Assembly (NCBI GenBank): GCA_022824225.1
Contig: JAJEAH010000007.1
Location: 46,613 to 110,612 of the forward strand
Origin: Chloroflexota bacterium
GTDB lineage: Bacteria > Chloroflexota > UBA11872 > VXOZ01
Reading direction: 5' to 3'
Length of the DNA stretch: 64,000 nt
This document shows, one piece after another, positions 32,364-63,978 of this stretch (position 1 is the stretch's first letter; the number at the start of each line of letters is the position of its first letter). The notes under the pieces are model-generated. The model ran no database searches, was not told where the DNA came from, and worked only from the letters and a program-made list of their open reading frames with translations. The position numbers and the translations under genes were made by a program.

Positions 32364-32642
32364 TGGAGGCCGTGCTAGGCGGGGAGTTAGCGGTGCCCTG
32401 TACCCGCAATCCGCTATAGCGGGGTCGAAGGCTTTCCGTGAGGTTCTAGTTTCTTCGGAGGCTGCTGCGTGGTATGCGGTGTTGATGGTTGGGTCTTGCG
32501 CGGCGAGAGCCCGTGAACCCCGTCAGGTCCGGAAGGAAGCAGCGGTAAGCGGCCACTTTCGGGTGCCGCAAGGTAGCTTGGCCGGAGCTAGCGCCGCGTG
32601 GGCGCTTCGGAGAACTGGATCGAAGGAAAGGCACGGCCTCTC
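32364..32642 (+). ncRNA. ffs: signal recognition particle RNA, large (Bacillus scRNA-like) type with Alu domain
   Basis: GTGCTAGGCGGGGAGTTAGCGGTGCCCTGTACCCGCAATCCGC Alu domain; GTCAGGTCCGGAAGGAAGCAGCGGTAAG S-domain loop; terminal helix GAGGCCGTGC(32366-75)/GCACGGCCTC(32631-40). Confidence 0.93.
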
Positions 32643-37291: not shown

Positions 37292-37391
37292 GGAGGCGCT
37301 CGGGTCCCGGTGGGCCTCGCGGTCTTCAAAACCGTCTGCGGGGCGGGCTACTCCCGTCCTGGGTGGGTTCGACTCCCATGCGCCTCCGCCA
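37292..37391 (+). tRNA. selC: tRNA-Sec (anticodon TCA)
   Basis: 8-bp acceptor GGAGGCGC/GCGCCTCC, anticodon loop CTTCAAA, long variable arm, GGTTCGACTCCC T-arm, encoded GCCA end. Confidence 0.95.
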
Positions 37392-57165: not shown

Positions 57166-57612
57166 TTACGTAGCCGCGACCGGAACCTGCTCGCCCTGCA
57201 CTTTGGTATAGACCCGCCGGGCCAGGTCGCCTGCGATAGGCGCCGGTTGACCCAGCCGGACGCTCTCTTCCACGTAGTCGTAGAGTTCGTCGATGTCTTC
57301 CTTGGCATTCAAGCGCTGGAACCACAGACCCCTGCCAAACAGGTAGAGAAACGCATTGTTGCCCAGGGCGCAATTGCCCAGACAGCCGCCGCCGTCGTCT
57401 GCCGTGAACACAATGTCCACCTGGCCCGCTATGCCGCGGCGGCGCGCTTCCCGGAGATAGTGGGCCTTATCGATCTTTGGAAACGTAATGCCGTTGCCGC
57501 AGCAACACGCCTCGCAAACGAAGAGGACACCGGCAATCGTTTGGATTACTTCCTGGTCTCCATCCAGCGTGGGCACAATCATGAGATCGGGACGACCGGG
57601 GATACCCTTCAT
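57166..57612 (-). CDS. (2Fe-2S) ferredoxin-domain protein
   Basis: VCEACCCGN and GGGCLGNCALGNN cysteine motifs. Confidence 0.7.
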   Translation of the reverse strand: MKGIPGRPDLMIVPTLDGDQEVIQTIAGVLFVCEACCCGNGITFPKIDKAHYLREARRRGIAGQVDIVFTADDGGGCLGNCALGNNAFLYLFGRGLWFQRLNAKEDIDELYDYVEESVRLGQPAPIAGDLARRVYTKVQGEQVPVAAT

Positions 57613-57681
57613 TAATTCTTCCTTACCTTGCGGGCTGCGCGCTCATTTCGAGCCGGCTGATTCTGTAAAGTGTAAGAACCT

Positions 57682-57729
57682 CGGTCGAGCGAGCGCTCGG
57701 TCGAGCGAGCGCTCGGTTGAGCGGTCGCC
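57682..57729. repeat. 16-bp tandem repeat CGGTCGAGCGAGCGCT (2 perfect + 1 degenerate copy)
   Basis: direct reading, 57682-57697, 57698-57713, 57714-57729. Confidence 0.9.
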
Positions 57730-57829
57730 GGTGAGGGCAGGACACCCACACCCATCGCGACGAGCCGGGGATCTCTTCCCAAAGCTACCAGAATCTGCGA
57801 ATGGTTGTCAACTACGGCGGGCCGCGCTC

Positions 57830-57859
57830 TTGACGATTCTCCCCGCCTCATGGTATAAC
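57830..57859 (+). promoter_or_regulatory. sigma70-like promoter TTGACG-N18-TATAAC
   Basis: -35 57830-57835, -10 57854-57859; predicted start ~57866. Confidence 0.7.
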
Positions 57860-57909
57860 GTACTAGCCGTACGCTGGGATAGGATAACCGGAGAATAACA
57901 GAAGCTGCT

Positions 57910-58005
57910 GTGAACCCCGCAGGGATTGCCAAGAGCCTCGCGCTACGCGGCGGCCACAAGCCTGAGTTGTGGCCGGTCGTATTGATGATTCTTGTAGCCG
58001 CCTAG
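57910..58005 (+). CDS. candidate attenuation leader peptide (M)NPAGIAKSLALRGGHKPELWPVVLMILVAA*
   Basis: GTG start; C-terminal run GTC GTA TTG ATG ATT CTT GTA GCC GCC TAG upstream of ilv/leu operon. Confidence 0.45.
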   Translation: MNPAGIAKSLALRGGHKPELWPVVLMILVAA

Positions 58006-58195
58006 GCGGCATGAGAGCATATTACACAACACACACGCAACAACGGAACGGCAGCACTTCCCAGCAGCGCGTAGAGAATTGATGCATTCACAGGACTAGG
58101 GTCGCCAAACGGACGGCACATTCAAGCAGGCGGCTGTGATGCACACCACTGATAGCGACAACGCACACTGTACGCAGAGCAGAAGATCTTGGGAA

Positions 58196-58227
58196 TGCCC
58201 GTTCCAGGCTAAGGAACGGGTTTTTTG
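58196..58227 (+). terminator. intrinsic terminator CCCGTTCC-aggctaa-GGAACGGG-TTTTTT
   Basis: 8-bp perfect stem 58198-58205/58213-58220 followed by T6. Confidence 0.9.
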
Positions 58228-58263
58228 TTGCTTTGGGGCCCAGGACGCAAGGATTGCCAAGCA

Positions 58264-58608
58264 GTGTTGAGCGATTATTCGGAGACATCCGCAGACATCG
58301 GCGCAGACGTTGAGCACGCGCCGCCAGCCATGCGCTGGAGCAGGCGGGCGCTGCTCATGGCCGGCGTGGCGTTCTCGGCTGCCATACTGGTGCTGGGGGC
58401 GCTTGCGATCGCGCTGCTGGGCACATCCATCGCGCTCATTACCGGCCTGGTGGAGGGGAACCGGGAAGCGGCCGCGGTTGCCCTGGCAGAAATCTGGCGC
58501 CTGAGCCCGCTCTTGCTGGCGGCGGAATTCGTGCTGGCGTGGCTGCTGGTAGCGCTCGTGCTCATCGTGCGCCGCGCTCTAGCCAAGTATGGCATGGAAG
58601 TTCCCTGA
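58264..58608 (+). CDS. small multi-span membrane protein (DUF1634-like, tentative)
   Basis: ORF 58225..58608, internal GTG start with AAGGA upstream; three hydrophobic segments. Confidence 0.55.
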   Translation: MLSDYSETSADIGADVEHAPPAMRWSRRALLMAGVAFSAAILVLGALAIALLGTSIALITGLVEGNREAAAVALAEIWRLSPLLLAAEFVLAWLLVALVLIVRRALAKYGMEVP

Positions 58609-58877
58609 GACCGGCCCAGCACACGCCGCAATCCCTTAACAGCGGCCGGTTGGACGAGTATCATGAAGTGGATGAAAACTGTGACACTGATGGAGGCAGG
58701 AACCTATATGGTAGAGCGCAGCCCCTCGCCGGGCGTCGCTGTGCCTTATGGGGCAGTAGGCTGCGGCCAGACCCAACTGGGCTGAATGCAGCCAAGGAGA
58801 TGGCGCGCACGCCGCTCTCCCTCGATAGCCGATTTCGATAATTCTGGTGAACGAGCGAAGCAAGAGGTAGGAAACTG

Positions 58878-60581
58878 ATGAAACGTACCGGAGCAGAGAT
58901 CATCCTGGATAGCCTGGTGGCGCACGGGGTGCATTCGGTCTTTGGGTATCCGGGCGGCGCGTGTTTGCCGCTCTACGACGCCCTGTACCACTACCAGGAC
59001 AGGCTCAACCACATTCTCGTGCGCCACGAACAAGGCGCGGCTTTTGCCGCGGACGGCTATGCCCGCGCCAGCGGCGACGTCGGCGTCTGCATCGCCACCA
59101 GCGGTCCCGGCGTCACCAACCTCGTCACCGGCATTGCCGGCGCCCACATGGACTCCGTCCCAGTGGTCGCCCTGACCGGCCAGGTGCCCCGCAACCTGCT
59201 CGGCACCGACGGGTTTCAGGAGACCGACGCCACCGGCGTGATGCTGCCAATTACCAAGCACAATTGGCTCGTGATGAACGCGGAAGAACTGCCGCGCGTG
59301 ATGGAAGAAGCGTTCCACATCGCCAACACGGGCCGCAAAGGCCCCGTGCAGGTGGACGTCCCGAAGGACGTGTTCTTGGAAGAGGTAGAATTCGACGGCT
59401 TCCCGCCCCCCCGCATTCCCGGCTACAATCCCGATGAGGGGACCCAACCCGATCCCACACAGGTGCGCGCAGCCGCGGAAGTTATCTACGGCTCGGAAAA
59501 GCCAATCATCCTGGCAGGGCACGGGATCCACTATTCGGACGCCTACGACGAACTCCTGGCTTTCGCCGAGAAAGCGAATATCCCGGTCATTACCACGCTT
59601 CACGGTGTTTCGTCCTTCCCGGAGAGCCATGAGCTTTCATTCGGCATGGTGGGCATGCACGGCAACCTCTACGCCAATTGGGCCGTGGATCGGGCGGACC
59701 TGCTCATCGCATTGGGCATGCGCTTCGACGACCGCGTCACCGGCCGGTTGGAGGACTTTGCCACCAACGCCCGCATCATACACGTGGACATCGACCCCGC
59801 GGAGATCGGCAAGAATGTCGCCACCGACGTGGGCATCGTGGCCGATCTCAAGCCCACGATTCGCGCGCTCACTGACGAAATCGAGCGCCTGGACCACACG
59901 CCTTGGGTCAAGCAGATTTGCCAGTGGCGCGAAGACCATCCCAGCTTGGCGATCCGGGAGACCGAAATCGTGCTGCCGCAATGGGTTATTCGCCAGATCT
60001 ACCACATAACGAACGGCGAGGCGATTGTGGTCACCGACGTGGGCCAGGCCCAAATGTGGGCGGCGCAGCACTTCTGGTACGACCGGCGCAACACGTTCTT
60101 CTCGTCGGGCGGCCTCGGCGCTATGGGCTACGCCTTCCCCGCGTCCATCGGCGTCAAGTATGCGCGGCCCAACGAGCAGGTCTGGTGCATCATTGGCGAC
60201 GGCGGTTTCCAAATGACTCTCCAAGACCTCGCGGTGGTCCGCGAGCACGACGTAGACGTCAAGATTGCCATCATCAACAACAACCATCTCGGCATGATCC
60301 GCCAGTGGCAGACGCTCTTCTACGAAAGCCGCTTCATGAGCGCCAAGCTGGAGAATCCGGACTTCGTCAAGCTGGCCGAAGCCTACGGCATTCCCGGCCT
60401 GCGCGCGAGCACGAAGAGCGATGTCGTCAAGGTGCTGAAAGAGGCTGAGAAAATACCCGGTCCCGTGTTGATGGACCTGGTTGTGGACGAAGTTGAGAAA
60501 GTCTACCCGATGGTCCCGGCCGGCTCCAGTCTGGCCGAAACTATCGAGGGCGATGAAGTGGAAGAGGCACGCTACGCATGA
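58878..60581 (+). CDS. ilvB: acetolactate synthase, large subunit
   Basis: MKRTGAEIILDSLVAHGVHSVFGYPGGACLPLYDAL; GDGGFQMTLQDLAVVREHDVDVKIAIINNNHLGMIRQWQ. Confidence 0.96.
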   Translation: MKRTGAEIILDSLVAHGVHSVFGYPGGACLPLYDALYHYQDRLNHILVRHEQGAAFAADGYARASGDVGVCIATSGPGVTNLVTGIAGAHMDSVPVVALTGQVPRNLLGTDGFQETDATGVMLPITKHNWLVMNAEELPRVMEEAFHIANTGRKGPVQVDVPKDVFLEEVEFDGFPPPRIPGYNPDEGTQPDPTQVRAAAEVIYGSEKPIILAGHGIHYSDAYDELLAFAEKANIPVITTLHGVSSFPESHELSFGMVGMHGNLYANWAVDRADLLIALGMRFDDRVTGRLEDFATNARIIHVDIDPAEIGKNVATDVGIVADLKPTIRALTDEIERLDHTPWVKQICQWREDHPSLAIRETEIVLPQWVIRQIYHITNGEAIVVTDVGQAQMWAAQHFWYDRRNTFFSSGGLGAMGYAFPASIGVKYARPNEQVWCIIGDGGFQMTLQDLAVVREHDVDVKIAIINNNHLGMIRQWQTLFYESRFMSAKLENPDFVKLAEAYGIPGLRASTKSDVVKVLKEAEKIPGPVLMDLVVDEVEKVYPMVPAGSSLAETIEGDEVEEARYA

Positions 60582-61099
60582 GACACGTCATCATCGTAGA
60601 CGTTGAGGACCATCCCGGCGTCCTCAACCGGATTGCCAGCCTCTTCCGCAAGCGGGCGTACAATATCGAGAGCTTGGCCGTCGGGCACTCGCACCGCCCC
60701 GGTATTTCCCGTATGACGATTGTCGTCGCAGCGGACCACAATGAGGCGCTGCAGGTCGTAAAGCAGTTGGATAAGCTCATCGAGGTCGTGTCCATCACCG
60801 ACGTCACGGAACAGCGCCATGTCTCCCGGGAGATGGCTCTGGCCAAAGTGGCGGCGCCGGAGATGAAACGCACTGAGATCTTGCAGCTCGCAAATGTTTA
60901 CCGCGCGCAAGTGGTGGACGTATCGCCGGGCAGCATCATCTTGGAAGTAACCGGCGATGAAGACAAGATCGACTCATTTGTGGAGATCATACGCCCGTAC
61001 GGTATCCTGGAACTGACCCGCACCGGCGAAGTCGCCATGGTGCGGGGCCGGGCGATGCCAACGCCCCACGTCCTTGTGGAGGAAGGGCCGGCGGCATAG
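60578..61099 (+). CDS. ilvN: acetolactate synthase, small subunit (ACT domain)
   Basis: MRHVIIVDVEDHPGVLNRIASLFRKRAYNIESLAVGHS; 4-nt overlap with ilvB. Confidence 0.96.
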   Translation: MRHVIIVDVEDHPGVLNRIASLFRKRAYNIESLAVGHSHRPGISRMTIVVAADHNEALQVVKQLDKLIEVVSITDVTEQRHVSREMALAKVAAPEMKRTEILQLANVYRAQVVDVSPGSIILEVTGDEDKIDSFVEIIRPYGILELTRTGEVAMVRGRAMPTPHVLVEEGPAA

Positions 61100-61185: not shown

Positions 61186-62181
61186 GTGGTTCAGGTCTAC
61201 TACGACGAAGATGCAAACCTCGATCTGCTCAACGATAGGACCATCGGCATCATAGGGTACGGCAGCCAGGGACACGCCCACGCCCTGAACTTGCGCGATA
61301 GCGGGTGCTCGGTGATGGTCGGCCTCTACGAAGGGAGCAGTTCCTGGTCGAAGGTGGAGAGCGACGGTCTGCAGGTCGGAACGACGGCCGCGGTGGCGCA
61401 GCAGGCGGACCTCGTCATGATGCTGACGCCGGACACCGTGCAGCCCAGCCTCTACCAAGAGTCCATCGCGCCGCACCTGCGGGCGGGACAAGTCTTGCTC
61501 TTCGCCCACGGCTTCAACATCCACTTTCAACAAATCGTTCCCCCAGATATGGTCGACGTGAGCATGGTCGCCCCGAAAGCGCCCGGCCACCGCATGCGCG
61601 CAACGTTCGAAGAAGGCAACGGCGTGCCGGGCCTGATCGCGATCCAACAGGACGCCAGCGGCAATGCCCGTGAGTTGACCCTGGCGTACGCCAGGGGCAT
61701 TGGCTGCACCCGCGCCGGCGTGCTCAACACGACGTTCAAGGAAGAGACCGAAACCGACCTCTTCGGCGAGCAGACGGTTCTCTGCGGCGGCGTGAGCGCG
61801 CTGGTGAAGGCGGCGTTCGAGACTCTGGTCGAGGCCGGCTATCAGCCGGAAATCGCCTACTTCGAGTGCATGCACGAGCTCAAGCTCATCGTGGACCTCT
61901 TCTACCAGGGCGGCCTGAACTACATGCGCTATTCCGTAAGCGAAACGGCCGAGTACGGAGACTACAGCCGCGGCCCGCGCGTGGTAGACGACCACGTCCG
62001 AGAAACCATGCAAGAGATTCTGCGCGAGATTCAGACCGGTGAGTTTGCCCGCGAGTGGATTTTGGAGAACATGGCCGGCCGGCCCGCCTTCAACGCCCAC
62101 CGCGAAATGGACAAGGAACACCAGATAGAAACCGTGGGCAAGAACCTGCGGGCTATGATGCCATGGCTCGACCCAAAGTAA
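61186..62181 (+). CDS. ilvC: ketol-acid reductoisomerase
   Basis: [70 protein letters not shown]. Confidence 0.97.
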
Positions 62182-62412: not shown

Positions 62413-63978
62413 ATGCGAACCATACAAATCTTCGATACAACGCTGCGCGACGGTGAGCAAGCGGCGGGCGGCTCCCTGACGGTAGACGAAAAACTCTACC
62501 TGGGCCAGCAACTGGAGCGCTTGGGCGTTGACATTCTGGAGGCCGGCTTCCCCCGCACGTCGCCCGGCGACTTCAAGGCGGTGCAACTCCTGGCGGAAAA
62601 GCTGCGAGACGTACAGATATGCGCCCTCTCCGGCTTCAAGCCCGATCAGGTGGAAGCGGCGTGGGAAGCAATCAAGGAAGGCGCGGCCCCACGTATTCAC
62701 GTCTTCATCTCGTCCAGCGACATTCACCTGGAACGCCAACTGCGCATGTCGCGCCAGCAGGTCCGCGAGGCTGCGGCGGCGTGTGTGCGGCAAGCGGCCG
62801 GATACTGCGCCAACGTCGAATTTTCGGCCATGGACGCGACACGCAGCGACTGGGACTTTCTCTGCCTGTTGTTCGGCGACGCCATCGCGGCGGGTGCGCG
62901 CGTAATCAACGTGCCCGACACCATGGGCTACACACAACCCCATGAGTTTGCCGAACTCCTCCAGTACTTGCGCGCCAACACGCCCGGCATCGAGGACATC
63001 ACGCTCTCCGTGCACTGCCATAACGACCTCGGCCTAGCCAACGCCAATTCTCTGGTGGCCATACTGAACGGCGTCGACCAGATCGAATGCACCATCAACG
63101 GCGTCGGTGAGCGTGCGGGCAATGCCTCCCTGGAAGAGGTGGCGATGAACACCACCGTGCGCAAGGACTTCTTCCAAGTGACCCACGGCATCAAGACGGA
63201 AGAAATCCACCGCTCCAGCCGCATGGTGAGCGAACTCATGAACATGCCGGTGCAGCCCAATAAGGCGATTGTCGGCGCAAACGCGTTTGCCCACTCCTCC
63301 GGCCTGCATCAGGACGGCATGCTGAAAGACCGGCAAACGTATGAGATCATGACGCCCCAGAGCGTGGGCATGGGCGGCAGCCGCATCGTCCTCGGCAAGA
63401 CCAGCGGCCGCCACGCGTTTCGCGATCAGCTCGCCAAGATGGGCTATCACCTCAGCGAGCAGGATTTCCAGGAGGCGTTTGACCGCTTCAAGGATCTCGC
63501 CGATAAGCGCCGCAACGTGACGGCCCGCGACATCGAGGCGTTGCTCTCCAGTGACGTGCTGCAAGCCAAGGAGTACTTCCACCTGGACCACGTGCAGGTG
63601 AGTTGCGGCGACCACAGCATCCCTACGGCCACGGTGCGGATTACCGACGTGGAAGGGCAGACGATGGAAGATGCGGCTCTGGGTGATGGGCCGGTGGATG
63701 CCGTCTGCAAAGCCATCAACCGCATCATCGACGTGCCCGCGGAACTCACCGAGTTCCGCGTCCAGGCCGTTACCGAAGGCATAGACGCGCAGGGCGAGGT
63801 GAGCATCCGCCTGGAGAGCGAGGGAGTGTCCGTTACCGGCTACGGCGCCGATACGGACATCATCGTTGCCAGCGCAAAAGCCTATATGAACGCCCTGAAT
63901 AAGCACATCTACGCCCAGAATAGCAGGGCTACACAGGAAGAACAGGCACCGGTCGGGGCGACAGGTTCGCCGTCGTAG
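62413..63978 (+). CDS. leuA: 2-isopropylmalate synthase
   Basis: IQIFDTTLRDGEQAAGGSLTVDEKL; LSVHCHNDLGLANANSLVAI; C-terminal LeuA allosteric domain. Confidence 0.96.
   Translation: MRTIQIFDTTLRDGEQAAGGSLTVDEKLYLGQQLERLGVDILEAGFPRTSPGDFKAVQLLAEKLRDVQICALSGFKPDQVEAAWEAIKEGAAPRIHVFISSSDIHLERQLRMSRQQVREAAAACVRQAAGYCANVEFSAMDATRSDWDFLCLLFGDAIAAGARVINVPDTMGYTQPHEFAELLQYLRANTPGIEDITLSVHCHNDLGLANANSLVAILNGVDQIECTINGVGERAGNASLEEVAMNTTVRKDFFQVTHGIKTEEIHRSSRMVSELMNMPVQPNKAIVGANAFAHSSGLHQDGMLKDRQTYEIMTPQSVGMGGSRIVLGKTSGRHAFRDQLAKMGYHLSEQDFQEAFDRFKDLADKRRNVTARDIEALLSSDVLQAKEYFHLDHVQVSCGDHSIPTATVRITDVEGQTMEDAALGDGPVDAVCKAINRIIDVPAELTEFRVQAVTEGIDAQGEVSIRLESEGVSVTGYGADTDIIVASAKAYMNALNKHIYAQNSRATQEEQAPVGATGSPS

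Follow-up and report, generated by a model that had tools for sequence, protein, structure and literature searches.

A probable leader-peptide transcription attenuator upstream of the ilvB-ilvN-ilvC-leuA genes in one genus of the Chloroflexota

Layout of the ilvB upstream region

The window, by which we mean the whole 64,000-nucleotide stretch of Chloroflexota contig JAJEAH010000007.1 that was analysed, carries genes of branched-chain amino acid synthesis near its right-hand end, preceded by a compact module that runs from a promoter to an intrinsic terminator. Conservation was judged across six genomes of the genus, the window and L002-L006, among which L002-L004 are close relatives. The outer features of the locus are as follows.

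57830-57859, plus strand: promoter P1, TTGACG-N18-TATAAC with an extended -10; TTGACGA and TG.TATAA invariant in six genomes
58198-58226, plus strand: intrinsic terminator, CCCGTTCC-loop-GGAACGGG-TTTTTT, found by consensus scan; stem 100% paired in six genomes
58264-58608, plus strand: small probable membrane protein of 114 amino acids, the first gene after the terminator; homologues in five congeners
58636-58664, plus strand: promoter-like site P2, TTAACA-N17-TATCAT, found by scan; TTRACA and WATCAT kept in six genomes
58878-60581, plus strand: ilvB, acetolactate synthase large subunit (Pfam TPP_enzyme N, M and C domains)
60578-61099, plus strand: ilvN, acetolactate synthase small subunit (Pfam ALS_ss_C, ACT)
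61186-62181, plus strand: ilvC, ketol-acid reductoisomerase (Pfam KARI_N/KARI_C; TIGR00465)
62413-63978, plus strand: leuA, 2-isopropylmalate synthase (Pfam; TIGR00973)

P1 consists of TTGACG at 57830-57835, an 18-nt spacer and TATAAC at 57854-57859, with TG one base 5' of the -10 element, and transcription from it would start near 57866. Our consensus promoter scan requires T as the last -10 base, which is the sole reason that it missed P1. The terminator, with arms at 58198-58205 and 58213-58220 followed by TTTTTT, is the only terminator-like site that the consensus scan found in 57600-59000; 0.9 such sites are expected in shuffles, so that the scan result taken by itself is unremarkable. 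All six genomes keep every pair of its stem, around a loop without any invariant base. The promoter, hairpins, terminator and upstream copy GGAACGG claimed by the first-pass annotation could all be read in the sequence at the positions claimed for them, including the hairpin arms GGCCACAA/TTGTGGCC at 57952-57974 and GGAACGG at 58045-58051.

That annotation had placed an attenuator upstream of the ilvB genes, and this placement is supported with a qualification, as the first gene after the terminator encodes the small membrane protein and ilvB possibly has a promoter of its own as well. The 114-aa protein is 51-59% identical in the five congeners with dN/dS well below 1 among relatives, has no more than marginal matches elsewhere in the class, and is without a Pfam or NCBIfam match. 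It occupies this place, between the putative attenuator and ilvB, in this genus only, and its co-regulation with branched-chain amino acid synthesis appears to be implied. No terminator was found by consensus scan between this gene and ilvB. P2, which like the 58264-58608 ORF had gone unmentioned in the first-pass annotation, lies directly upstream of ilvB; since it is conserved there, ilvB transcripts may arise directly from P2 as well as through the attenuated route.

The surroundings offered several further observations. On the minus strand, 57166-57612 encodes a 148-aa protein that is 72-78% identical within the genus, carries a cysteine-rich CEACCCGNG stretch, has no Pfam or NCBIfam match and is always divergent from the ilvB leader in the genus. 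Just 5' of P1 a block, CTGCGAATGGTTGTCAACTA (57785-57815), is nearly invariant in the six genomes; it has a minus-strand TTGACA (57806-57811) in a TTGACA-N17 promoter-like arrangement, and this site is probably the divergent promoter of the 148-aa gene. An imperfect tandem repeat with a 16-base unit (CGGTCGAGCGAGCGCT) occupies intergenic positions 57681-57726 and was not seen in the relatives. Elsewhere in the window are a bacterial large SRP RNA (32370-32636; RF01854, 200 bits) and a selenocysteine tRNA (37292-37387; Rfam RF01852, 67 bits), the latter of which suggests selenoprotein synthesis in this organism.

Occurrence of the module and its leader open reading frame

When homologous ilvB-upstream regions of related genomes were collected, every one of the six genus genomes proved to carry the conserved module before ilvB, as a single copy, and in L002-L006 the leader unit sits between the same divergent gene and ilvB as in the window. 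A covariance model of the leader, run against 301 genomes of the phylum, matched the genus members and gave one extra weak match (G259, E = 0.003), which we took as chance since it lies antisense within a protein-coding gene; the module was found nowhere else credible among these 301 genomes. A search of genome contigs for IlvB returned distant relatives only and no genus member. The IlvB matches in three related genomes (G029, G021 and G037) have one in-frame TGA each, which may be assembly error, an artefact of search frame or recoding.

Conservation within the module is uneven. Invariant columns across the six genomes make up 2% of the 5' UTR, 55% of a leader ORF, 71% of segment 2 (described below), 22% of the spacer, 75-88% of the terminator arms and 0% of the terminator loop. 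The leader ORF was absent from the first-pass annotation; its features are these.

57910-58005, plus strand: leader peptide ORF of 31 codons and TAG, VNPAGIAKSLALRGGHKPELWPVVLMILVAA; start, frame, stop and length kept in six genomes
57951-57975, plus strand: hairpin A, arms CGGCCACAA/TTGTGGCCG, inside the leader ORF; pairs kept in the six-genome alignment
57976-57996, plus strand: probable control codons 23-29, GTC GTA TTG ATG ATT CTT GTA (V V L M I L V), from conservation and codon rarity
57997-58010, plus strand: hairpin B, GCCGCCTAGGCGGC, which includes the leader stop codon; pairs invariant in six genomes

The ORF starts with GTG in the window and with ATG at the same column in the five relatives, and it has the same length with zero indels in all six genomes; the relatives' peptides end in LVAA, or PVAA in L004, immediately before the stop. 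The stop codon TAG forms the middle of hairpin B. When the alignment columns were shuffled 5000 times, a conserved ORF with 25 codons or more arose once. No good Shine-Dalgarno sequence was found 5' of the start, and the window has a purine-rich GGAGAA about 17 nt upstream of it. Leader dN/dS is only moderately below one, as expected if the peptide matters through its codons and not as a product. Part of the leader's middle (RGGH..LW) is also constrained at the RNA level by hairpin A, whose pairing is maintained through G-U swaps that fall in one arm or the other depending on the genome.

The Ile, Leu and Val codons of the leader ORF in the window (ATT, CTC, CTA, TTG, GTC, GTA, TTG, ATT, CTT and GTA) are mostly rare synonyms, namely GTA, CTT, CTA and TTG: in a small reference of eight window genes (2432 codons), which was applied to all six genomes, Val is encoded by GTA in 7% of cases, and Leu by CTT, CTA and TTG in 4%, 2% and 13%. 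By this reference the rarity of the Ile/Leu/Val codons, given the amino acids, has a P of 0.00005 for the window and no more than 0.0007 for any of the relatives, and the remaining leader codons are ordinary (P = 0.18-0.67). Ile, Leu and Val account for six of the seven residues at codons 23-29 in the window and for 3-5 of the seven in the relatives; GTA29 is invariant in all six genomes, and CTT28 and GTA26 in five of six. Since noncoding DNA read as codons would also give rare codons, controls were scored for the combination of at least seven Ile/Leu/Val codons that are rare with other codons that are ordinary. None of 507 in-frame gene stretches had this combination; it was present in 43 of 7240 six-frame stretches and in 9 of 1750 stretches of shuffled leader.

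Alternative pairings of the leader RNA

Between the leader ORF and the terminator lies a sequence that could pair with the terminator's own 5' arm.

58045-58059, plus strand: segment 2, the antiterminator 5' half, GGAACGGcaGCActt; pairs with 58194-58205 in six genomes
58194-58205, plus strand: segment 3, the antiterminator 3' half, by alignment pairing; 58198-58205 doubles as the terminator 5' arm

The two segments form 12 pairs with a two-base bulge, and 97.2% of the cells are paired across the six genomes, with one two-sided change. None of 300 column shuffles matched this pairing (observed -18.1 kcal/mol, shuffle mean -11.7). The first-pass annotation had proposed that 58045-58051 and the terminator 3' arm compete for the terminator 5' arm in mutually exclusive states, and the complementarity found in all six genomes, unequalled in the shuffles, bears this out. 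It had also named compensatory changes between 58045-58051 and 58199-58205 as support, and one such event is seen, a three-way change in which positions 58047, 58203 and 58215 are A/T/A in the window and G/C/G in the five relatives; because the three bases change jointly, both alternative structures are kept. Pair counts alone are not significant (153 of 500 shuffles were as good), there being six genomes, of which L002-L004 are close, and a single compensatory event. The strength of the case for the predicted antiterminator thus lies in conserved complementarity and not in pair counts.

Segment 2 begins 40 nt past the leader stop, and about 135 nt separate it from segment 3, distances that exceed those of textbook attenuators. 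We sought a conserved anti-antiterminator (a 1:2 pairing) in the six-genome alignment, and the best candidate, at columns 139-154, was equalled by 61 of 300 shuffles; it overlaps hairpin A and codon 24, which would fit the classical scheme, and its details vary between genomes. Partition-function folding with ribosome footprints gave a shift in the expected direction that was clear in L002 and L005, weak in the window and absent in the others. Two other candidates were set aside. Codons 9-12 pair with segment 2 in the alifold structure, but two of these pairs are broken in the window; and L003, L004 and L006 may have a further ORF between segments 2 and 3, which is not kept in the window.

Known regulators of ilvB and the proposed mechanism

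Rfam 15 at gathering score has no family at the leader, including riboswitches, 6S, tmRNA and RNase P as Rfam holds them, and a permissive scan (E ≤ 10) gave chance-level matches only, the best with E = 0.18. Neither of two outcomes that the first-pass annotation had named as refuting it, a module without conservation and an Rfam match to an unrelated housekeeping RNA, was seen. The earlier description of the leader as belonging to no known class is correct for Rfam families, but functionally the module would be of the well-known leader-peptide attenuator type.

The T-box (RF00230) was searched for at ilvB and not found in any of the six genus genomes (at E ≤ 10 in the window and E ≤ 0.01 in L002-L006). 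In four other families of the class 22 ilvB loci were searched, and 21 of them have a T-box upstream, 12 at gathering score and nine more by E-value (two of the nine, L050 and L049, reach the gathering score too); L044 had none. Within the genus a T-box lies upstream of a trpE-like gene in five of the six genomes, and the sixth (G005), which gave no match, is 69% complete. The T-boxes of the sister families and of the trpE site served as positive controls for the negative result at ilvB. The terminator resembles parts of leaders in family f3; these are T-box terminators and not the same element.

Attenuation of ilvB through a leader peptide is established or has been suggested in Corynebacterium, Mycobacterium, Streptomyces and other bacteria (PMC1262725, PMC10272879, PMC11857589), and our search of an open-access library found no leader-peptide attenuator for this phylum. 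The Corynebacterium ilvBNC attenuator is the ilvB-II motif, with the C. glutamicum leader peptide MTIIRLVVVTARRLP (PMC10272879, PMC11857589), and its named control codons are CUU and GUA (PMC11857589, PMC10272879); CTT-GTA are likewise the last two branched-chain codons here. By a title cited in PMC10272879 the C. glutamicum peptide is formed without a ribosome binding site, as is apparently so here. Both systems have a leader ORF with Val/Leu/Ile codons before ilvB, a terminator with a competing antiterminator, and a single copy per genome. Judged by the published layout (PMC10272879), our module does not fit ilvB-II, whose consensus sequence and structure have a uORF of 15-17 codons overlapping P1 and a terminator P2 (both in that motif's own labels). 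Unlike in Corynebacterium, the ORF here has 31 codons, a hairpin surrounds its stop codon, segments 2 and 3 are about 135 nt apart, and a membrane-protein gene precedes ilvB; no sequence similarity to the Corynebacterium element was detected, and no ilvB-type motif came out of the Rfam scan. The leaders of enterobacterial ilvGMEDA, ilvBN and leuABCD have control codons in a leader peptide, an antiterminator and a terminator. Our module shares their control-codon logic, but it has fewer control codons and no 1:2 protector hairpin was found in it. The ilvB-OMG and Leptospira ilvB motifs are suggested uORF-based ilvB attenuators (PMC10272879), and neither gave a covariance match here, so far as Rfam holds them. 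The T-box at ilvB in the other families is alike in position, in the choice between terminator and antiterminator and presumably in induction on starvation; unlike our module, it reads uncharged tRNA directly without a ribosome, and no T-box sequence is present here.

We consider it likely that the ilvBNC-leuA operon is under ribosome-mediated transcription attenuation, with the module as its leader-peptide attenuator. Sequence comparison establishes a leader ORF that is conserved and biased in its codons, a terminator, and an antiterminator predicted to be mutually exclusive with that terminator, and the first-pass claim of an attenuator gains from the conserved terminator/antiterminator, the compensatory change and the rare-codon leader ORF as its likely input. 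The attenuator reading is favoured because the downstream genes are those of branched-chain amino acid synthesis, and because sister families have the T-box, another amino-acid-starvation device, at the same place. Weighing against it are the poor match to a Shine-Dalgarno sequence, the long distances around segment 2, the anti-antiterminator candidate that does not surpass shuffles, the uneven footprint folding, the single compensatory event and the second promoter-like site. Transcription would start near 57866 and a ribosome would translate the 31-codon ORF. With charged Val, Leu and Ile tRNAs scarce, the ribosome would slow at rare codons 23-29 (VVLMILV), segment 2 (58045-58059) would pair with 58194-58205 and block the terminator, and polymerase would read into the membrane-protein gene and then ilvBNC-leuA; with fast leader translation the terminator (58198-58226) would form and the transcript would end. 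Translation of the ORF, stalling as the signal and this direction of the response are inferred; some sequence presumably holds segment 2 back during fast translation.

There is a small chance that the attenuator is non-canonical, in that, with no 1:2 protector hairpin and with halves about 135 nt apart, a ribosome at the rare Val/Leu codons would act by another route, for example through hairpin A and the nascent LALRGGH..LW or through ribosome-polymerase coupling, an ancestral T-box having been displaced. It is improbable that an RNA-binding protein or small ligand drives the switch, with the ORF incidental or merely exposing RNA. The antiterminator/terminator pairing is indeed the best supported RNA feature, modelling of ribosome position is mixed between genomes, and in the S. 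coelicolor ilvB leader regulation was unaffected when candidate control codons were changed (PMC1262725); however, such a switch would not be expected to show a conserved frame, start and stop with a rare-synonym bias restricted to Ile, Leu and Val, and no Rfam riboswitch or T-box matches. Because the S. coelicolor case warns against deducing function from anatomy alone, we file the module under known leader-peptide attenuators with its switching step as predicted. Less probable still is an independent 360-nt unit, a small RNA or a dual-function RNA with a 31-aa peptide, that ends at an ordinary terminator and leaves the membrane protein and ilvB to other promoters. The closed span from promoter to terminator and the second conserved promoter-like site before ilvB would suit it, but the membrane-protein ORF begins 38 nt past the terminator with no other promoter-like site before it by scan, a plain end-of-unit terminator is not expected to have a conserved exact antiterminator copy, and the position upstream of ilvB is fixed in six genomes. 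A degenerate or unusual T-box is hardly credible in spite of the T-boxes upstream of ilvB in sister families and their similar terminator arms (CCCGTCCC/GGGACGGG), as the searches at ilvB were negative at E ≤ 10 in the window and at E ≤ 0.01 in L002-L006, although an ordinary T-box precedes trpE in the genus, and the leader does not contain the conserved TGGNACCGCG motif.

On the leader-peptide attenuator reading, the attenuator probably replaced a T-box at ilvB in this lineage; this is the simplest history suggested by the comparison, and its direction is a supposition. One starvation sensor, in which a T-box reads tRNA directly, would then apparently have been swapped for another, a ribosome on rare codons, at the same operon in families of one class, and the exact bases involved are named here for testing. 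Whether rare synonyms are confined to the sensed amino acids is also a simple test that can be reused wherever leader ORFs are sought in GC-rich genomes.
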